Shown here piece after piece: positions 52,549-63,187 of a stretch of DNA of 64,000 bases. A model generated the notes under the pieces. That model had not been told where the DNA came from. It made no database searches and worked only from the letters and a program-made list of their open reading frames with translations. Within the stretch, counting starts at the first letter, position 1. Every line of letters starts with the position of its first letter. The DNA is taken from positions 62,001-126,000 of IMG/VR virus record IMGVR_UViG_3300050821_001428, one strand, 5' to 3'. Origin of the DNA: a virus. Made by a program: the position numbers and the translations under genes.

Positions 52549-53892
52549 GTGGAGCCATTATCATCCCAACCACCATCCTATATCACCAAGAAGATGCTAC
52601 CGGGAGCGCTACCGGTAAAGAACCAGGCCGCCAAAATGGGAGTTGATCCGAGATCCGCGCAAGTTGGCCTTGCATCGGGTCGTTCGTTGCTACCGCCGTG
52701 GCCCCCCGGGTCGCCGGTGCAGAAGAATAACGTGACCTGGCAATGGGGGGACGAACTATCTGAGATATCTCAGATAGTTACTAATATCAATCAAACCCTT
52801 GAAGAAACCGATAACATGAGTATCAGTGTTGCACAACTAAAGACATATATCAAGACGGATCTAAACGTCTTGATAGTTGGTCCCGCCGGGACAGGTAAGA
52901 CCGCTATGCTTCAGGAAGCATGTGAGGGCCTTGGATTACGAATGAAATACTATCACGCAGCTACTTTGGACCCATTCGCAGACCTTATAGGAATCCCGGT
53001 GCCCGATCAGGAAACAAAGACCGTTGAGTATTATCGCCCACATGACGTGGATAACGCAGAGGTTATTTTCTGCGATGAGCTAAACCGCGCGTCTACGCAG
53101 ACGACCAACGCTATCTTCGAAATGATTCAGTTCCGTTCAATTAACGGTGAGCCTCTACCTAAGCTGCGATGCGTAGTAGCTGCTATGAATCCAGTCGAGG
53201 ATGCATACGATACCGACGAATTAGATATCGCTCTTCTAGACCGGTTCGATGTATATCTAAACGCCCCGGCGCAGGTTCATGCGGAATATTTTATCAAGAA
53301 GTATGGTCGGGATTACGCTAGGGTCGGTATTGAGATTTTCAATGAATATCAGGCTGATTATAATGCCCCGCAGCGTAGTAAGGATAACAAGCCAATAGGC
53401 TACTTTTCCCCACGTCGCTTGGATAAGTTAATGGATATTTTCCAGAAGTTTCCGACACCCCAGACGGTTAGTGTGGTGCTACCTCATAATGTCATCTTAA
53501 ACAATAAGATGATAGCGAATAAATTCAATATTGCTCTTGGTAATCAACCCGCTCCTTCTCCTGAGAAATCCAAGGAAGAAACCCACACAGAATTCTTGGA
53601 TCAATATTACCAGAGCGATATTAGCTATAGACGTAATATCAAGCAAGCACCCAAATTGGTAGAGGCTTATAAGTGGGTAGTAGCTAAGAGAGATCAATCC
53701 ATGGCTGCGAGTATCCGTGATCACCTTGCCGTCGATCTAAATCAGCAGGTTGGTGTTGATAAGATTGTTGGTAACTTTAAACTAATTATTCAGGATTTTG
53801 ACGATAAACAACTGGAGATACTTATGAACAAGTGGAATTATACCAAGATGCGTAAGTTTAGTCAATCCTCTATGAATTGGTCGGGTTGGTAA
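52549..53892 (+). CDS. MoxR-family AAA+ ATPase
   Basis: A 447-residue ATPase. Walker A GPAGTGKTA is at residues 111-118, Walker B VIFCDELNRA at 172-181, sensor 1 in VVAAMNPVEDA (N214) and the arginine finger in LLDRFDVYL (R232), all of the MoxR pattern. These enzymes remodel partner proteins together with VWA proteins, and the next gene is one. The N-terminal ~90 residues before the ATPase are an unusual proline-rich extension (SLLPPWPPGSP), and the DNA there is somewhat GC-rich. The GTG at 52549 is the outermost start; ATG at 52594 would shorten it by 15 residues, and neither has a clear ribosome site. Confidence 0.85.
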   Translation: MEPLSSQPPSYITKKMLPGALPVKNQAAKMGVDPRSAQVGLASGRSLLPPWPPGSPVQKNNVTWQWGDELSEISQIVTNINQTLEETDNMSISVAQLKTYIKTDLNVLIVGPAGTGKTAMLQEACEGLGLRMKYYHAATLDPFADLIGIPVPDQETKTVEYYRPHDVDNAEVIFCDELNRASTQTTNAIFEMIQFRSINGEPLPKLRCVVAAMNPVEDAYDTDELDIALLDRFDVYLNAPAQVHAEYFIKKYGRDYARVGIEIFNEYQADYNAPQRSKDNKPIGYFSPRRLDKLMDIFQKFPTPQTVSVVLPHNVILNNKMIANKFNIALGNQPAPSPEKSKEETHTEFLDQYYQSDISYRRNIKQAPKLVEAYKWVVAKRDQSMAASIRDHLAVDLNQQVGVDKIVGNFKLIIQDFDDKQLEILMNKWNYTKMRKFSQSSMNWSGW

Positions 53893-53902
53893 AGTAAAAA
53901 TC

Positions 53903-55207
53903 ATGTTTGGATCCCCTGAACTTAAAAAGTACAGAGAAGCCATCAAAGAGTTACTATGGATTCACCCAGCGGTTGGATCAGTAGCACGATCAATGGGTGA
54001 ACCTATTTTCACTCATGATGAACCGACGGCGTTTTTAGAGTTAGATGATAATAAAGAAATTCGCTTCAATTTTAATCCAGAATTTATTCTAGATACAGAT
54101 ATAGAAATAGTCTCTGCGGTGATTGCTCATGAGTCGTATCATTTGGTTCTTGATCATTTTCAGGAATTGGTAGACAAGGTAATATTCCCCAATACCAAGA
54201 CTCTAGTAATTGCTCAGGAGATTATCGTAAATGATACTATTGAAAATATCTATCATATGACTCTTCCCGACTTCGTTTATCGAGGTTTGCAAACTCTAGG
54301 CGAGGATTGTTCACAGTACACATCCAAGCAGGTATATGATAAGTTACTTGAAGATCAAGATGAGAATCAAGATCAGAACGGCGGTCAAGGTAAGGACGAG
54401 CACGGATGCGGCGGACTTCATAATAGTGACGGAATATCAGATGAAGATGCTAAAACTGCCAAGGGTATACAGGATGCGTTTAATGATCTCATTGATGATA
54501 TTGCCAAATCAGAGGGTAAAACACCAGATGAGGTAAAAAACGATCTTCTAAATGACCACGGCGGAGGATTTTCAATAGGTAATTTACAGGGAGATCGTGA
54601 TGGTGCGCTTAGCCGCGAGCGGCTAAATTGGAAGCACCTGTTAGCCCAGATCAATCCTAAGATCATGGATTCAGGGTCACCTAAACGTCGTACGGAGAGC
54701 AATTGGATGAAGCCAAATCGTCGTATGGTTGCCATATATCCAAAGGTAATTGTACCTGTATCACAACCAAAGGAGAAATCTTCTGACAACGATAATGGTG
54801 ATATGATTCCTTCCTTCGTAATCGCCTTAGACCTATCAGGTAGTATTCCTCTGACATTAGTCGATACGCTACAAGGGTTTCTAGAAGATATTCCAAGTGA
54901 TCTGATTAATGCTTTCCCTTGCACTTGGAGTAGTCATTTAGTGCCATTTGACCCTGAGACTCGAAAAATCTGTAGACGCGACGGAACGTCTATTAGCAGG
55001 GTATCTCGATATGTCAATGAGGTTAAATCTGAGACAGGGAGAGATCCATACGTCCTTGTAATTACGGATGGTCAAATTTATGGAGATTTTACTAGGCCCG
55101 GAAAGCAATGGTACTGGATGGCTATCAATGCTAACTCTGTAAGTCAATGTCAGAAACATGCAGATAAACCTGAATATGTGTATAATATTGAGGATTTCAC
55201 AAATTAA
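53903..55207 (+). CDS. VWA-like protein with zinc-metallopeptidase motif (DUF2201 type)
   Basis: A 434-residue partner of the AAA+ protein. The N-terminal domain has an HExxH zinc motif (VIAHESYHLVLDH, H76-E77-x2-H80) followed by VIAQEIIVND as possible third-ligand helix. A very polar D/N/Q/G-rich linker sits at ~150-180. The C-terminal domain is VWA-like, with the MIDAS start VIALDLSGSIP (D310, S312, S314) and ITDGQIYGDF as the last metal loop. MoxR plus metallopeptidase-VWA pairs are known in bacteria, with roles in complex assembly; they are unusual cargo in phages. It starts 10 bp after the ATPase stop. Confidence 0.82.
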   Translation: MFGSPELKKYREAIKELLWIHPAVGSVARSMGEPIFTHDEPTAFLELDDNKEIRFNFNPEFILDTDIEIVSAVIAHESYHLVLDHFQELVDKVIFPNTKTLVIAQEIIVNDTIENIYHMTLPDFVYRGLQTLGEDCSQYTSKQVYDKLLEDQDENQDQNGGQGKDEHGCGGLHNSDGISDEDAKTAKGIQDAFNDLIDDIAKSEGKTPDEVKNDLLNDHGGGFSIGNLQGDRDGALSRERLNWKHLLAQINPKIMDSGSPKRRTESNWMKPNRRMVAIYPKVIVPVSQPKEKSSDNDNGDMIPSFVIALDLSGSIPLTLVDTLQGFLEDIPSDLINAFPCTWSSHLVPFDPETRKICRRDGTSISRVSRYVNEVKSETGRDPYVLVITDGQIYGDFTRPGKQWYWMAINANSVSQCQKHADKPEYVYNIEDFTN

Positions 55208-55223
55208 CAAGGAAAACTAATCA

Positions 55224-55400
55224 ATGATGCAAATTCTACCCAATTGGACCGTTACTTATAAGCAAATCGATGGTGGTGAGGAACAATTAATTGTACCAAA
55301 CGGCGATTTAGAAGCAATTGTACGTATCTTTAAATATAGTGGAATAAAATACTTTTTCGTTCATGAGCAGGAGCTAGATAATATTCGGTCTATTGTATGA
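55224..55400 (+). CDS. Small unknown protein (58 aa)
   Basis: A short ATG-ATG frame with AAGGAAAA upstream, reading MMQILPNWTVTYKQIDGGEE, then LIVPNGDLEAIVRIFKY and YFFVHEQELDNIRSIV, an alpha/beta small protein. It overlaps the next gene by 4 bp (ATGA) and follows the VWA gene by 16 bp, so it belongs to this operon. Function unknown. Confidence 0.6.
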   Translation: MMQILPNWTVTYKQIDGGEEQLIVPNGDLEAIVRIFKYSGIKYFFVHEQELDNIRSIV

Positions 55401-55708
55401 TGTATAGAAGGAAATTAAATAGTGTAAAGCGTAGAAAAAGACTAGTGACAATAGGTGAGCGTGACGGTTGGATTTGCCAACTGTGTCATGGCGAAGTAGA
55501 CCGTCTAGATAGCGTAAATCATAAAAACAATGTCGGAGAGCATCGTGCTAGTCTGGATCACATCAATCCATTATGCTTAGGTGGTAACGATGATAATAAC
55601 AATGTACGTTTAGCACACCAAAGCTGTAATAATTATATAATCGGTGATAATGTGGAACCTTATCAACCGTTTGATAAAACACCCCTATTTGGTATCGATC
55701 AAGAATGA
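55397..55708 (+). CDS. HNH endonuclease (small)
   Basis: A 103-residue HNH nuclease. The basic head (MMYRRKLNSVKRRKRLVTI) leads into ERDGWICQLCHGEV with the first cysteine pair, then ASLDHINPLCLGGNDDNNNV with the catalytic H and N, and RLAHQSCNNYIIG completing H-N-H and the zinc site. Possibly a homing nuclease or a DNA-packaging/degradation nuclease. It is coupled to the preceding small gene and lies just upstream of the HNH-Mom fusion gene. Confidence 0.85.
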   Translation: MMYRRKLNSVKRRKRLVTIGERDGWICQLCHGEVDRLDSVNHKNNVGEHRASLDHINPLCLGGNDDNNNVRLAHQSCNNYIIGDNVEPYQPFDKTPLFGIDQE

Positions 55709-55761: not shown

Positions 55762-55770
55762 TGCTATAAT
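55762..55770 (+). promoter_or_regulatory. Extended -10 promoter, leaderless start of the HNH-Mom gene
   Basis: TGCTATAAT is a perfect extended -10 box. It ends six bases before the A of the ATG at 55777, so the transcript should begin at or within a base or two of the start codon. No ribosome site is visible. Confidence 0.65.
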
Positions 55771-55776
55771 GAATGA

Positions 55777-57225
55777 ATGCAGTTTTGTGCATATCATCAA
55801 ATAGAGCATCTAGAAGGGGATTTCAACGCCACCCAACTCAAGCGCAAGAATAGTGCTTGGTGTCGCAAGGCTCTAGCTGAAAATAAACGCCTAAAGACCC
55901 ATGGATTAGAGTCCAACTCTAAGGCCAAAGGAAAGGGCGGAAGACCCAATTGGTATACCCTTGAGGATTTAGAGAAGATTCAAAAATGGCTTCAAGAGGG
56001 TAAATCTTATAGCTGGATCGGAAGGCAATATAACCCCGATAGACAAGCTGCGGTTATATCCAAATTGGCGCAAGAACAAGGATGGCAAAGCCAAGACGCC
56101 CTAAAACTTCAGACAAAGTTTGTTGAACCGGAAAGCAAGGTTTGCACCTGGTGTCATGAAGAAAAACCCATTGAAAAGTTTCCTTTAAGATCAGATAGGG
56201 AAGATAATAATGGCATTTCTCGCTATGAAGCAAAATGTCATATTTGTCGTAGATTAGTAGTCCCAGAACGACAAGCGTATAATCGTAATTATCATCAGAT
56301 TAATGCAGATGCTATTCGCCAAAATAAACGCGATTATCGTAAACGTCATCCCGAGACTCATAGGAGAGCGAGTCATGTTAGGCGTGCTACTAAGAATGCC
56401 ACCCGCGTAGAAGCCTACGATGAACGCCAAATATGGGAATCTTATGATGGATTATGCTATGTGTGTCAGAAGTCCGTAGATTTCAATAAGCGTGGACACG
56501 AAGGCGATTCTTTTACATTAGAACATATTGTTCCTATAAAAAAGAAAGGGCCAACTTCATATAATAATTTAGCCGTATCACACAAACGTTGTAATTCTAG
56601 TAAGAAACGTTTGATAGTTCCTGATGTATTCGCTGAGGACAATTATTCGGTAAAAGAAATGATAGATAAATCCGAAGCATATCGTCTATCTTTAGAAAAA
56701 CATTATCTACATCGGAAACGATCATTTAGTTATGTATATGGGTTGTATAGGCATGATCAATTGATGGGATTTGTGGGATTTAGTTCGCCAACTTCGAATC
56801 GTATCTCGAAATCAGTATGCCCTGATGATACGCGCCTAGTCATTGAATTAAGTCGTTTATGGATAGATCCTCAAGCTGCCGTTAATGCTGGATCGTGGCT
56901 AATATCTCGGGCATTAAAAATGCTCCCTCCGTATATTGTAATTTCATATGCAGATTCGGCTATCCAAGATACTAGACATACTAAACCACGCAATCATAAT
57001 GGCCTGGTTTACCAGGCAACTAATTTCTATTTTGCTGGTAAAACCAAACCCTCGCATGAATACGTTGCTAATAATAGTAGATCGGTAACTAAGGATACAC
57101 CTGGTGCTATCAAGCAAGAAGTATCCTCTAAATATCGCTACTGGACTTTGACCGGTAGCAAAAGAGATAAAAAGAATCTTTTCCGATTATGTAATTGGCC
57201 TATACTGGACCCGAAAGATTCCTAA
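55777..57225 (+). CDS. HNH endonuclease fused to Mom-like DNA-modification domain
   Basis: A 482-residue multidomain protein. Residues ~50-105 form an HTH-like basic domain (GGRPNWYTLEDLEKIQKWLQ). Residues 123-157 form a zinc ribbon (C123/C126, C154/C157), followed by an arginine-rich helix. Residues ~225-275 form an HNH nuclease (C227/C230, LEHIVPIKK with H250, YNNLAVSHKRC). Residues ~315-460 match the Mom family of phage Mu: GLYRHDQLMGFVGF, VIELSRLWIDP (E357), SWLISRALKMLPP, IVISYADS, NHNGLVYQATNFYFAG and KYRYWTLTG. Mom is a GNAT-like enzyme that adds an acetamide-type group to adenine and protects phage DNA from restriction. The fusion joins DNA cutting and DNA masking. It starts at a leaderless ATG and ends at a bidirectional terminator. 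Confidence 0.85.
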   Translation: MQFCAYHQIEHLEGDFNATQLKRKNSAWCRKALAENKRLKTHGLESNSKAKGKGGRPNWYTLEDLEKIQKWLQEGKSYSWIGRQYNPDRQAAVISKLAQEQGWQSQDALKLQTKFVEPESKVCTWCHEEKPIEKFPLRSDREDNNGISRYEAKCHICRRLVVPERQAYNRNYHQINADAIRQNKRDYRKRHPETHRRASHVRRATKNATRVEAYDERQIWESYDGLCYVCQKSVDFNKRGHEGDSFTLEHIVPIKKKGPTSYNNLAVSHKRCNSSKKRLIVPDVFAEDNYSVKEMIDKSEAYRLSLEKHYLHRKRSFSYVYGLYRHDQLMGFVGFSSPTSNRISKSVCPDDTRLVIELSRLWIDPQAAVNAGSWLISRALKMLPPYIVISYADSAIQDTRHTKPRNHNGLVYQATNFYFAGKTKPSHEYVANNSRSVTKDTPGAIKQEVSSKYRYWTLTGSKRDKKNLFRLCNWPILDPKDS

Positions 57226-57228
57226 AGA

Positions 57229-57256
57229 AAAAGGGCACCCAATTGGGTGCCCTTTT
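57229..57256. terminator. Bidirectional terminator between HNH-Mom gene and capsid gene
   Basis: A perfect 12-bp stem (57229-57240 with 57245-57256) with an AATT loop, flanked by A-runs on one side and TTTT on the other, so it works for both strands. It sits between the convergent HNH-Mom and major capsid genes. Confidence 0.9.
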
Positions 57257-57278: not shown

Positions 57279-58367
57279 TTATAGCTGCCACTGAACAGGA
57301 GCACCTGTGGATAGACCACCGATGTCTAGCTTGCTCGGAGCCGCTGTCGAATCACTCTTTAGAACTCTTGCGATACCACGGGGGTTCAATACAAGCATTC
57401 CGATAAGTTCATCGAGTACCCATCCCTTGTAGAACTGCTCTACAAGGTGATTCTCTTCAACGTCTAGCGAGTACATGACTGGCATAACGCCGACGAACTC
57501 TGGCTCTGCGGTTAGGAAGACCTCGCCCTGAGGAACGATGATCGAACGTTGAATCTGGAACTCACCGAACGATGTGATCTTACCACCTGCAAACACCTCA
57601 TCCTTGAACTTGAAGCCTGTAACATTCAGATCCCATGTGTAAAGGTCACGAATATCAACCGGGTGTGCTAGCACGCGGCGAGCCTCAAGCTGGTTGATTT
57701 CGATCTGCGATACAGCGGAGTAGAAGTCCGATGGCTCTAGTGGGTTACCTGCGCCTAGAAGAACGGTATGCTCATTAGGAGCAACCGATGGACCGGCTGC
57801 GATACCAGAAGCAATACCACCCGTAGGTGCTAGACCAACTGTGCTACCCGACTGCAATGTCGAGCCAAGATTCACAATCGCCTGCTCTAGAAGAAGAATT
57901 AGACGAGCGTCCTCCTGCTTCTGAATTGCCTGACGAGTTTCATCCTGAGCATACTCAACCGCATTTACACGTAGGAAGTAAAGGTCTTCCTTACGAATAC
58001 GTGGGAAGGATGCGATACGGAATAGCTGTGGGAAAGCCTGCTTGCCTTCGAATGGAGTGATCTTGACTTCAGCGTCAGTGCTGTTAAGCACGTAAGCTTG
58101 ACCAAGGTCATCCAGAATATCATAAGGCATAAGTGGGCCACGCTCTAGAGTATCTTCCACAAGGACATTACGTACAATACCCTCATAACGAAGACGGATC
58201 TGGATAGGACCAATCATTCCCTGACCAATTCGACGTAGAGCATTCTGCTTGTCGGCTAGAATAGCTTCCAAACGTGCTGACTTCTGCGTCTTGGAAAGCT
58301 TCGGAGAACCCGATAGCTTCATTTCATAATCTGCGGAACTAACCGCTTGTCTTGTAAATTCTGACAT
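57279..58367 (-). CDS. Major capsid protein, HK97-fold (probable)
   Basis: A 362-residue protein with good ribosome site (AAGGAA) and positioned after prohead protease and decoration genes. The N-terminal region is helical and polar (KLSKTQKSARLEAILADKQ). Residues ~130-180 form a long helix (LRVNAVEYAQDETRQAIQKQ, EDARLILLLEQAIVNLGS), like the HK97 spine helix. Later ARRVLAHPVDIRDLYTWDLN, QIQRSIIVPQGEVFLTAEPE and FVGVMPVMYSLDVEENH look like P-domain and A-domain strands. The family is a large-myovirus capsid type. It should be the most abundant virion protein. Confidence 0.8.
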   Translation of the reverse strand: MSEFTRQAVSSADYEMKLSGSPKLSKTQKSARLEAILADKQNALRRIGQGMIGPIQIRLRYEGIVRNVLVEDTLERGPLMPYDILDDLGQAYVLNSTDAEVKITPFEGKQAFPQLFRIASFPRIRKEDLYFLRVNAVEYAQDETRQAIQKQEDARLILLLEQAIVNLGSTLQSGSTVGLAPTGGIASGIAAGPSVAPNEHTVLLGAGNPLEPSDFYSAVSQIEINQLEARRVLAHPVDIRDLYTWDLNVTGFKFKDEVFAGGKITSFGEFQIQRSIIVPQGEVFLTAEPEFVGVMPVMYSLDVEENHLVEQFYKGWVLDELIGMLVLNPRGIARVLKSDSTAAPSKLDIGGLSTGAPVQWQL

Positions 58368-59218: not shown

Positions 59219-60259
59219 TTACCTACCGAAAATAGCGGAATCCAATACATAGTCATCCATAGGAGCATTGCTCGCAGCCGTGTGATCATTCGCTACGCGA
59301 GTGAAACCATTAGGTGCTGAGCTAAACTTGCCGAACATAGACGGAACCTTAGTTAGACCAGCGGTGCGGTGCTGTGCAATCTTAGCCAGACCAGCAGTCT
59401 TAACCTTACTTAATGATTCAATCTGTGCTAATACTACAGTTTCATCAGTATTATCGAGAGTAGCAATACGATTGAACTTTGCATCAACCGGGGATAAACC
59501 TAATTCAATTTCTAGTTCTGCTAGCTTGATAGATGAGATACGCACAGAGCCGGTGTGAAGCTTCACGTCAGGCGTAGGTACTCCACCAAACTCCATCTTA
59601 TCCTTGGTGGTAGGATCTTGCTGCTTCAGTACGCCATTTCCGTCAGTACCGCTCCAAGTTGTTGTCGGACCAGAGTTATTGGCGGGAGTAGTCTGATGCT
59701 CAAGTAGATTGACGCGCTTATACGAGTCAGTCGCCACCGAATCAGTGGGCTGAACTCCCTGAACCGCTGAACCTCCCTGGGCAACAGGCTTGTTACCCTG
59801 CTGTTCATTCTGTTCTAACGTGTTATCGTCGTAAGAATAACGAGCTTGTGCATATGCATCTTGTGCCTGCTTGACAGCGGCATAATAAGCATTTGCAGCC
59901 TTTACTCCATCTTCGGTTGCTGGGAACGGGTCGCTGGTCACCGGATCAGTAATACCCTTTGCGGTACCATCCGAATCGCCAAAGGTCTTAGTTGGACCAG
60001 AATCTTCAGTTGTCTTATCGGTATTGAAACCGGAATCATCGCTCTTTGGATCAGCGGTCGTAAGGGTTTCGGTCTTATCAGGCTCGACACCCTCGACACC
60101 CGTACCACCAATACCGGTTACATCAATTTGCTTCTGTGCAGTCGAAGCTGCTTCGTTTGATGCTTCATCGAAACCACCAACACCGACAACATCAATGCGC
60201 TCCTTAGCGGAGGTGCCGTCAGGCGGGGTAGCTCCATCAGCAATCTTGGTATTACTCAT
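59219..60259 (-). CDS. Scaffold protein from an internal in-frame start
   Basis: Within the protease-scaffold frame, at codon 977, an ATG (60259) has AGGAGA five bases ahead (TTTAGGAGAATCTATG on the minus strand), a far better ribosome site than chance. Translation from there gives 346 residues: MSNTKIADGATPPDGTSAKE, IDVVGVGG and IDVTGIGG near-repeats, then KAANAYYAAVKQAQDAYAQA and later VKLHTGSVRISSIKLAELEI. Internal scaffolds nested in the protease gene are known in lambda (C/Nu3) and others. It is likely the separately made core protein, cleaved by the protease. Confidence 0.6.
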   Translation of the reverse strand: MSNTKIADGATPPDGTSAKERIDVVGVGGFDEASNEAASTAQKQIDVTGIGGTGVEGVEPDKTETLTTADPKSDDSGFNTDKTTEDSGPTKTFGDSDGTAKGITDPVTSDPFPATEDGVKAANAYYAAVKQAQDAYAQARYSYDDNTLEQNEQQGNKPVAQGGSAVQGVQPTDSVATDSYKRVNLLEHQTTPANNSGPTTTWSGTDGNGVLKQQDPTTKDKMEFGGVPTPDVKLHTGSVRISSIKLAELEIELGLSPVDAKFNRIATLDNTDETVVLAQIESLSKVKTAGLAKIAQHRTAGLTKVPSMFGKFSSAPNGFTRVANDHTAASNAPMDDYVLDSAIFGR

Positions 60260-63187
60260 AGATTCTCCTAAATGATTATGATTGTGATTGCGTTGTGCAG
60301 TTGCCATTAGACGTTGTGCAGTCAGCATTGCTGAGGTAATAGGCGTTCTCTGATCATTCAGAATAACCTGATTACTTGGTTGATTGGTTACAATAGTATT
60401 AGGCTGCAAAACAGGGTTTTCAACCTTGTTAATTCTTGCAGCGGTCTTTTCTGTTACTAATGGAGTCCAACTCATTCTATTATTTACATTGGCGGTGGGT
60501 TGCTGTTTATTAGGCATTTGTCCGATTGGTGCCTGAGTTTGTGGACCAGCAGCAGTTTCTTCTTGAGTCTTCATCTCGTCACGAATTTGTTGTGCCTTTT
60601 GTAGATCGGGGTTGTCAAAATCCTTAGGACTTTGGACAAACCCACACACATCACAAGTTTCACCTTCCATTTGCGCCCCACAATTATGCACTAAAGCGCC
60701 CTCTACAACATATGTATGATCTACATCAACCTCTAGATTGTAAACATATCCATCATATGGTATTTCTTGAATCGAAGAAATCTTAGAAAGATTATATCCG
60801 CCAAATGCCCATTTGTTTTTGCCATACTTGGTTGAATAATCACAATTTGGATTAACTTTATAAGCATTTTCTACCTGATACGTTATCTTTTTATTCAATG
60901 GGTATGTGGTAGTAATTGAAGGCTTATAACAATTAATACGATTACCATACTCTGCCACTTGTAGAGCTAATGTTCTTGATGTCTGCTTAAGGTTACCCTT
61001 TTTATCATGGCCATCTCCATTTAATACTCCTTCAATAATATATTGAATTTTATTATCAGGTAAGAGCATTAATTCAGCCGGTATGATCTTATTATGAGAA
61101 TGTTTACCAATCCAAGCAGGGAACCACCTAGCCAACACAGTGCTACCTACTACTACCCATATACTATTAGGCTTATTAGGAACGGTGTAGAGCGTAGGAT
61201 GATATCCTAATTCAGTAAATATCCTTATTAGACGATCTTGATATTCTGTTTCCTTACGATGTAAAGCGAAATTAATCTCTCGTTTATTATTGCTACCCTC
61301 GGCTATATACATACCAATAGCCCATAAGAAATCTGGAGTTAATTCAAACTCGGTTGGTCCTAAAGTACGAGATCCAGATTTAATACCGATTTTACCTCGA
61401 TAAATTTGACTTGCTATATGGCGCGAAACACCCGTAAGTTCCCCGATACGTTTCCATCCCAAATGATCTACCTCACGCAACATCTTAATTTGAGGCTTGA
61501 TATCAGAATAATCTACATATTCGTTACCCCTAAATTGCTCCGGTACAGATACAGTTGTGATATCACGAACAATGCTAGGACCAACATGCACCAAATAATT
61601 CTGATTTGTTAAAGACGATGCAGACTGGAAATGTAAATGATGATTTTCTTCAAATGACTGTGATTTGTCGCAGACGCCGGGGGCGCACTTTTGATGATGA
61701 TCACCTGTTTGAGCAAGAGTATAAAATGGGTGATCAGGAGTAGCAATAACAGGTTGAGTAAATAAGCCAGAATCAATTTTGATGGCATTACCCGTAAATT
61801 TATTCTCCATCACATTGAGGACGGGATGGAAATGACCATCTCCGGTTAATACCTTGGTACCCATCTTAATCATCTCAATAGGTTCATACCCATTTTCAGT
61901 GCGTACCAATGTACCGGGTGCAAAGCAAATAGGACAGATATGTTCATCTCTCAATGTGTCGATATCGTCTGGGGCATGTACCTTCATTGACTGTGGAAGC
62001 TCGTTTTCGGAAGTATGTACGTGTGACCAACGAGGGTCATTCTGAGTGACTTGATTAGGAATCGCTTCAGGACCACCATGTAGTTCCTGATCGTAGATAC
62101 CACCGGGAGGGGTTGGACGTGCAGGAGATGGAGAACCAATCGGTAATCCATTTTCATCTACTTCTTCATTCTGCTTCATGAAGTATGGTAGCTGAACGCC
62201 CTGTTCGTCCAAATGAGGAACACCTTGATTATACTGGCCATAACTCGGATCTTCAAACTCCTGATATGTCCCGTCAATACCTTGTGTATGTGGGGCAAAT
62301 TTGTCACGGTCGTCAGGATGTATGATCCCTGGACCATTCGGATCATATTGACCCTCAGCTACAGGATTATAATAGTTATTATCCCATCTACCACCATCTC
62401 GACCCGAAGCAATAATTTCCTTAGTTAAAGCTGTCTCGTCTGCTGGATTAAAGACACCGGAGATTTCAAAAAATTGAACACCACCAACATTTTCATAACT
62501 CTTCTTTTTGATCTTCTGACCAGAAGCGGTCTTATAATCATGTTCATGACCCTTAAGCTTCACATGTGAGCAGAATTCAGCAGCAGTATGCGCTTTATTG
62601 CCACAATGTGAACATGTAGAGAATTCACAATTACAACCCATAGAGAAACCGTCAATATGACCTAGCTTTACTGCATTAGCAAACTTAGGATAGCTCTTGG
62701 CATCAATCTCTAGCAGTAATTCAATCTCACAAGCAGGTAGATGTGAAGAATCTACTTCTCTAGATGACCAATATGGATCAAGGTCGGCCGTTTTAGCATC
62801 TAAGACACGGAACTTAGAATCAACAATCATACCTCTAGTCTTCTTTGGATCACCGTTATTGTGATCGACAAAGATAGGCTTATTCATAAAGGTAGCAAAG
62901 CCATACTTCTGATTACCGTTAGAAGCTTCTAGTGTGAAACCGTCTGTCGAATGGTGCTTTGCTAGAATGTCAGGAGATCCAGCTAACTCTACCGTAGGCC
63001 AGCCGTCATGATTCTGATTTATGCGCGAACTGATAGAACGGATTCTTACATACAGAAAATCATCGTCTGTACGGAAGTCGTTATATTCCGACATCTTATT
63101 TAGGGAAGCGGTGTAGATGCGATCCTTAGATCCCTTGAGGTCTAAAACGTCGGCAATCTCGGCTGATGCATATTTGGTCAGGCTCAT
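59219..63187 (-). CDS. Prohead protease-scaffold protein interrupted by an intein
   Basis: A 1322-residue frame; 907 residues after intein removal. Residues 1-255 resemble prohead proteases: IFVDHNNGDPKKTRGMIVDS with candidate catalytic H109, LGHIDGFSMGC with S182 (G-x-S-x-G), and FFEISGVFNPADETA. A cysteine cluster (NCEFSTCSHCGNKA, FCSHVKLKGHEH) is inserted near 185-215. Residues ~415-420 plus 836 onward form a zinc ribbon (CPI|CGAQ...CDVCG) split by the intein (421-835). The last ~480 residues are low complexity and scaffold-like. The protease matures the head and likely removes the scaffold. Gene order (protease-scaffold, decoration, capsid) agrees. Confidence 0.8.
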   Translation of the reverse strand: MSLTKYASAEIADVLDLKGSKDRIYTASLNKMSEYNDFRTDDDFLYVRIRSISSRINQNHDGWPTVELAGSPDILAKHHSTDGFTLEASNGNQKYGFATFMNKPIFVDHNNGDPKKTRGMIVDSKFRVLDAKTADLDPYWSSREVDSSHLPACEIELLLEIDAKSYPKFANAVKLGHIDGFSMGCNCEFSTCSHCGNKAHTAAEFCSHVKLKGHEHDYKTASGQKIKKKSYENVGGVQFFEISGVFNPADETALTKEIIASGRDGGRWDNNYYNPVAEGQYDPNGPGIIHPDDRDKFAPHTQGIDGTYQEFEDPSYGQYNQGVPHLDEQGVQLPYFMKQNEEVDENGLPIGSPSPARPTPPGGIYDQELHGGPEAIPNQVTQNDPRWSHVHTSENELPQSMKVHAPDDIDTLRDEHICPICFAPGTLVRTENGYEPIEMIKMGTKVLTGDGHFHPVLNVMENKFTGNAIKIDSGLFTQPVIATPDHPFYTLAQTGDHHQKCAPGVCDKSQSFEENHHLHFQSASSLTNQNYLVHVGPSIVRDITTVSVPEQFRGNEYVDYSDIKPQIKMLREVDHLGWKRIGELTGVSRHIASQIYRGKIGIKSGSRTLGPTEFELTPDFLWAIGMYIAEGSNNKREINFALHRKETEYQDRLIRIFTELGYHPTLYTVPNKPNSIWVVVGSTVLARWFPAWIGKHSHNKIIPAELMLLPDNKIQYIIEGVLNGDGHDKKGNLKQTSRTLALQVAEYGNRINCYKPSITTTYPLNKKITYQVENAYKVNPNCDYSTKYGKNKWAFGGYNLSKISSIQEIPYDGYVYNLEVDVDHTYVVEGALVHNCGAQMEGETCDVCGFVQSPKDFDNPDLQKAQQIRDEMKTQEETAAGPQTQAPIGQMPNKQQPTANVNNRMSWTPLVTEKTAARINKVENPVLQPNTIVTNQPSNQVILNDQRTPITSAMLTAQRLMATAQRNHNHNHLGESMSNTKIADGATPPDGTSAKERIDVVGVGGFDEASNEAASTAQKQIDVTGIGGTGVEGVEPDKTETLTTADPKSDDSGFNTDKTTEDSGPTKTFGDSDGTAKGITDPVTSDPFPATEDGVKAANAYYAAVKQAQDAYAQARYSYDDNTLEQNEQQGNKPVAQGGSAVQGVQPTDSVATDSYKRVNLLEHQTTPANNSGPTTTWSGTDGNGVLKQQDPTTKDKMEFGGVPTPDVKLHTGSVRISSIKLAELEIELGLSPVDAKFNRIATLDNTDETVVLAQIESLSKVKTAGLAKIAQHRTAGLTKVPSMFGKFSSAPNGFTRVANDHTAASNAPMDDYVLDSAIFGR
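60683..61927 (-). other. Intein with LAGLIDADG homing endonuclease (415 aa)
   Basis: Splicing blocks are all visible. The first residue is C421 in CFAPGTLVRTENGYEPI (block A), with TPDHPFYTL as block B. A homing-endonuclease region has two LAGLIDADG-type helices (LWAIGMYIAEGSN and YIIEGVLNGDG) and an HTH between (IGELTGVSRHIASQIYRG). Block F is VYNLEVDVDHTYVVEGA, and block G is ALVHN followed by extein C836. Removal joins CPI to CGAQMEGE and rebuilds a zinc ribbon. Length is typical of a full-size class 1 intein. Nothing in the catalytic residues looks broken, so it is probably active. Confidence 0.93.

Follow-up and report, generated by a model that had tools for sequence, protein, structure and literature searches.

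A gene beside a phage capsid gene joins an HNH nuclease to a Mom-type domain and may encode a homing endonuclease that marks its own carrier

The 64,000-nucleotide stretch of DNA from a large phage analysed here (the window) carries a gene in which an HNH nuclease domain and a Mom-type GNAT domain are joined in one chain. The fusion is real and not an assembly artefact. We give even chances to the reading that its product is an HNH endonuclease of the free-standing homing type, with a Mom domain that marks carrier DNA so that this DNA is spared. The observations behind this reading are the two domains and their residues, the syntenic recurrence of the fusion, its patchiness, the exchange of its GNAT part in one relative, and the homology of the C-termini of Hef-like phage proteins to Mom. 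The HNH variant of the nuclease-Mom architecture is new, while fusion of Mom to a nuclease of the restriction fold was already known. The features are listed below by their positions in the window.

55397..55708, + strand: free-standing mini-HNH gene, 103 aa, directly 5' of the fusion gene (PHROG HNH matches)
55762..55770, + strand: extended -10, TGCTATAAT, ending 6 nt upstream of the ATG
55777..57225, + strand: HNH-Mom fusion gene, 482 aa
55777..55896, + strand: zinc-finger-like segment, C-x2-H...W-C, residues 1-40
55939..56091, + strand: HTH-like segment, residues about 55-105
56143..56247, + strand: four-Cys zinc ribbon, residues 123-157
56455..56607, + strand: HNH nuclease domain, residues 227-277
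56641..57222, + strand: Mom-type GNAT domain, residues 289-482
57229..57256, no strand: perfect 28-bp palindrome, terminator common to the fusion gene and the convergent capsid gene
57279..58367, - strand: major capsid protein gene, convergent neighbour

The open reading frame encodes 482 amino acids plus a stop, with the start and stop as first described. Its N-terminus, M-x-(F/W)-C-x-Y-H, is conserved across four homologues (C4, Y6 and H7 in the window protein), and the choice of start codon is thereby supported. Judging from their Cys and His pattern, residues 1-40 likely bind zinc. The HTH-like segment that follows matches HTH_38 at residues 61-83 (E=0.056, under the Pfam threshold) and is absent from the shorter homologues in the loci L029 and L089; residues 1-112 as a whole are 70% identical (78/112) to the homologue in L052. 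In the zinc ribbon, C123, C126, C154 and C157 are invariant in four homologues. The domain order of the first-pass annotation, an HTH-like part, a zinc ribbon, an HNH nuclease and a Mom domain, was thus confirmed, with the HTH match itself remaining sub-threshold.

Residues 227-277 match the Pfam HNH family PF01844 with 35.5 bits against a curated cut-off of 21.4 (E=1.1e-8), and C227, C230, H250, N264, C272 and N273 are invariant in the four homologues. The PHROG endonuclease VII family phrog_1035 (E=9.5e-18) spans the ribbon and the HNH domain together, a layout that the fusion protein has in common with free-standing HNH homing endonucleases and with the HNH/endonuclease VII-like nucleases of phages. 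With its 271 positions, however, the phrog_1035 profile matches only the N-terminal part of the fusion and carries no Mom domain. The HNH part was modelled poorly by AlphaFold2, so its assignment rests on sequence. When PADLOC was run for defence genes, it gave weak matches only, of the PtuB-type HNH kind.

Profile match, fold and signature residues all place the C-terminal domain in the Mom family of phages Mu and D108. Pfam Mom (PF25680) matches residues 295-434 with 80.5 bits against a curated cut-off of 27.1 (E=1.8e-22), the PHROG Mom-like family phrog_1384 matches the protein with E=1.7e-28, and the best solved structure by sequence is Mu Mom, 8bv8. The AlphaFold2 model (pLDDT 68.7 overall) reaches high confidence chiefly in the Mom domain, with values mostly of 80-94 over residues 290-390, and the modelled domain has Mu Mom 8bv8 as its top PDB match (E=6e-11). 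With residue numbering taken from D108 Mom, H58, E108, R111, S124, D149, G156 and Y159 correspond to H309, E357, R360, S373, D393, G409 and Y412 of the fusion. Mutation of S124, to which S373 corresponds, inactivates Mu Mom; the PDB title of 8bv8 is that of the inactive mutant S124A. Nothing in either sequence suggests decay of the HNH or the Mom domain. The initial identification of HNH plus Mom was therefore right, both domains scoring above their curated cut-offs and the latter having the 8bv8 fold. The possibility that would have undone it, an unrelated GNAT domain lacking the Mom signature, is ruled out by the PF25680 match, the 8bv8 fold and the signature residues, all seven of which are present. 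The difference from Mu and D108 lies in the arrangement, as their Mom proteins stand alone and occur with Com, whereas the Mom domain of the window is joined to an HNH nuclease.

The suggestion that the same fusion be sought in other phages led to two divergent homologous fusions at the same capsid site. An IMG/VR scan with the fusion as query returned stand-alone Mom proteins and no fusion; the homologues were reached through the neighbouring capsid gene instead. They are 38-41% identical to the window protein and occur in the 160-kb phage L029 and in L040-42/L089, which is one lineage in four identical copies. In all three lineages the HNH and the Mom domain both score above the curated cut-offs, all seven of the Mom signature residues examined are present, and the gene is convergent with the capsid gene, lying roughly 20-55 nt after it. 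In L052 the same site holds a gene with the same N-terminal block and HNH domain followed by a different domain, phrog_24928, and in L022 and L047 small HNH genes stand immediately after the capsid gene. Most other relatives, including close ones, lack the fusion and have no small HNH gene there either; L030, for example, has no fusion despite a capsid gene with 82% nucleotide identity to that of L029. On the capsid tree, at least three changes are needed to explain where the fusion occurs, a count that comes from few independent HNH-Mom lineages and from pattern-based scans. Presence of the fusion gene is thus patchy, at a constant site next to a conserved gene.

The window protein itself appears to be a mosaic, with residues 1-112 nearest to L052 and the Mom domain nearest to L029 and L089. 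These different nearest relatives, and the rarity of the fusion, could be taken to indicate a chance or assembly fusion of unrelated genes, but that explanation is refuted, and is given next to no probability, by stop-free two-domain reading frames that occupy this site in two further, divergent lineages.

The surroundings of the gene accord in part with the idea, put forward in the first-pass annotation, that it is an independent module with its own leaderless promoter and a bidirectional terminator. The extended -10 TGCTATAAT is present, and similar arrangements recur in L029, where TTGACA-17-TATAAT is located 7 nt before the ATG, and in L052, where TGCTATCAT is located 6 nt before it; in L089, unlike these three, the fusion gene abuts the upstream gene. 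A sigma-70 scan listed no site at TGCTATAAT, that is, no acceptable -35. Leaderless transcription of the fusion gene is plausible from this layout. The palindrome is perfect over 28 bp. Since a terminator-like hairpin lies 3' of the capsid gene in the inspected relatives both with and without the fusion gene, the terminator is no argument for the gene's independence. The capsid gene (phrog_2522, E=7e-94, and synteny) probably serves as the conserved point to which the site is anchored. Its nearest named relatives, about 54% identical, are in the Myrna group of actinobacteriophages, and an actinobacterial host is therefore likely.

Other genes of the neighbourhood are of interest in their own right. 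The mini-HNH gene at 55397-55708 (+) and the HNH-Mom gene make two adjacent HNH genes. Upstream of them, 52549-55207 (+) holds a MoxR-type AAA ATPase gene and then a DUF2201-type metallopeptidase-like gene. A mobile element of another kind lies near the capsid gene too: in a 1322-aa protein of the head region, encoded at 59219-63187 (-), residues about 420-835 are an intein, with matches to Hint_2 (E=4.8e-8) and to an intein splicing domain (E=2e-6). An Rfam scan of the region and a tRNA scan of the window gave no match.

Among named phages, no protein matched at least 80% of the fusion query. Mom genes that stand alone are common in phages, for example in Arthrobacter phage Maureen, Microbacterium phage BarnCat, Vibrio phage F89 and Aeromonas phage PX29, and among the named phages examined Mom was stand-alone except in annotated homing endonucleases and their kin. 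In PX29 (L111:2456-3862) the stand-alone Mom gene is followed directly by the gp49 endonuclease VII gene, so that Mom and an HNH-type nuclease are neighbours. A non-exhaustive search of bacterial and archaeal genomes with short peptide patterns found no fusion.

The exceptions are Hef-like proteins (phrog_3339, phrog_559) of T4-related, Campylobacter, Acinetobacter and jumbo phages, which have the same layout as the window protein: an N-terminal zinc-ribbon or DNA-binding part, a nuclease in the middle and a Mom-homologous GNAT domain at the C-terminus. The Mom-like family phrog_1384 matches a Campylobacter Hef (6e-7) and Thermus TMA_137 (6e-11), and comparison of Hef C-termini with Mom by profile gives a probability of 98.3% (E=2.1e-14 over 127 columns). 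The Hef Mom-like domain is the more diverged. Several have D changed to N at the signature aspartate, and the serine position depends on the alignment, being serine-serine in the profile alignment and a gap in the residue-check alignment. The nuclease of these proteins is restriction/Vsr-like, with weak MTES_1575 and Vsr matches, whereas that of the window is HNH; neither phrog_3339 nor phrog_559 is among the best 25 families listed for the fusion protein, and its nuclease does not class with that of Hef.

Hef matches 444 named records, some annotated 'nuclease/acetyltransferase'. The genes are solitary, beside or between conserved genes: at nrdA/nrdB in a T4-type phage, at topoisomerase II subunit genes, and between portal and terminase. 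In Pseudomonas phage Cassandra (L200:997-2679) the DNA polymerase gene is interrupted by a Hef-like nuclease-Mom gene and so stands as two CDS. In Acinetobacter Lazarusvirus (L197:880-2304 and L198:877-2304) such genes are convergent with the gp23 major capsid gene, as in the window, but their nuclease fold is unrelated to the HNH domain found there. U5 Hef is reported to cleave nrdB (PMC2988022), and Hef cleavage sites have been placed near its own gene (PMC3322345); that the G8 protein is U5 Hef is taken from their common locus.

In jumbo phages, Mom domains joined to REase-fold nucleases have been described and predicted to mark self DNA while attacking other DNA (Iyer et al. 2021, PMC7824862). 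Like the window protein, these have nuclease and Mom in one chain; they differ in the REase fold and were read as restriction plus self-marking, not homing. Because the PA5oct homing endonuclease is among the structure matches of the fusion model, these proteins probably overlap the Hef-like family. The statement in the first-pass annotation that no described system has this layout thus needs qualifying: a nuclease-Mom fusion had been reported with the REase fold and is present in Hef, while no earlier HNH-Mom fusion was found in a literature search limited to open-licence papers.

The domain that replaces Mom in L052, phrog_24928, was modelled with a pLDDT of 91.5, and the PDB structures that match it best (lowest E about 1e-3) are in the great majority acetyltransferases of the GNAT type. 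It was considered as a member of the Mom family and rejected, the profile comparison giving a probability of only 1.6%; the GNAT fold alone is supported. Elsewhere, phrog_24928 is joined to DNA methyltransferase-like sequences (L185:2923-4467 and L193:725-2497, identified from motifs), and in phage Lily its gene adjoins two annotated methyltransferase genes. It is therefore a second GNAT family tied to DNA methyltransferases and an HNH nuclease, and a candidate DNA modifier.

In the homing reading, the zinc-finger, HTH and ribbon modules would choose a DNA site, probably within the capsid gene of element-free phages or close to it, the HNH domain would cut or nick it, and recombination repair would copy the gene into the cut genome. 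As the gene is intergenic, the carrier's own site would stay intact and would need to be spared. The Mom domain would place an acyl mark on adenines of the carrier-phage DNA, most plausibly sparing this site and perhaps blunting host restriction. Homing activity is suggested, by analogy, by the patchiness of the gene, its location and the Hef precedent, and we hypothesize that the Mom mark provides self-protection. Against this, the Hef nuclease has a different fold, so that where the nucleases are concerned the parallel is one of analogy and not of homology. Accessory genes in general occupy this site, and a patchy distribution by itself is therefore no proof of homing. Comparison of the capsid gene between carriers and relatives gave no signal of co-conversion or of a resistant allele. 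Six private capsid nucleotides common to the carriers exceeded crude controls, but AT-rich triples of relatives gave as many or more; since the carriers are AT-rich, base composition explains the comparison and the excess is uninformative. More tentatively, and in our view less likely than not, homing endonucleases of at least two nuclease folds may independently have become modification-immune, the carrier being protected by modification and not by target disruption. One chain would then cut unmarked sites, and acylation by a Mom-type or alternative GNAT domain would mask the carrier's intact site.

Two mechanisms had been proposed from the first reading, a device for cutting unmodified host DNA while marking phage DNA and a homing-type module with anti-restriction cargo, and the homing-type module is the better supported, by the patchy presence at a single site next to a conserved gene and by the Mom-like C-termini of Hef. 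A weapon akin to a single-chain restriction-modification system, in which HNH would attack host or competitor DNA that lacks the mark and Mom would label phage DNA as self, is in our view unlikely. Both putative activities are in one chain with intact residues, the same prediction has been published for the REase-Mom fusions of jumbo phages (PMC7824862), and in L052 the GNAT part has been exchanged for one associated with methyltransferases; yet the gene is solitary, patchy and anchored to one conserved gene, and the studied Hef relatives are reported as site-specific homing enzymes.

Mu Mom is known for anti-restriction. A homing nuclease might accordingly carry Mom as cargo, with HNH spreading the gene and Mom guarding the genome as in Mu, unrelated to the HNH site. 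The abundance of stand-alone Mom genes in phages fits this, as does the fact that the fusion holds the sole Mom match in its genome record. We nonetheless think it quite unlikely, as it leaves unexplained why nuclease and GNAT recur in one chain, in fusions that involve nucleases of two folds and GNAT domains of two families. The changes at signature positions in Hef C-termini, such as D to N, mean that Mom catalysis may be dispensable in the Hef family, and they raise the prospect that the Mom domain is a non-catalytic DNA-binding or targeting module of the nuclease. For the HNH-Mom proteins this is improbable, given intact signature positions in three lineages despite such low overall identity (38-41%).

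The HNH-Mom fusion links Mom DNA modification with phage homing endonucleases, two literatures that were not found joined in the papers searched, and suggests that homing endonucleases are among the 'momylating enzymes' that have been counted in jumbo phages. A probable self-spreading DNA-cutting enzyme, encoded beside the capsid gene and joined to a Mom-type enzyme that should mark adenines, suggests a selfish gene with its own protective mark. If marking and cutting are coupled, this would explain how a homing gene can adjoin an uninterrupted essential gene, the capsid gene for one, while its carrier escapes cutting, and there would be a directly testable route from a selfish gene to a restriction-modification system.
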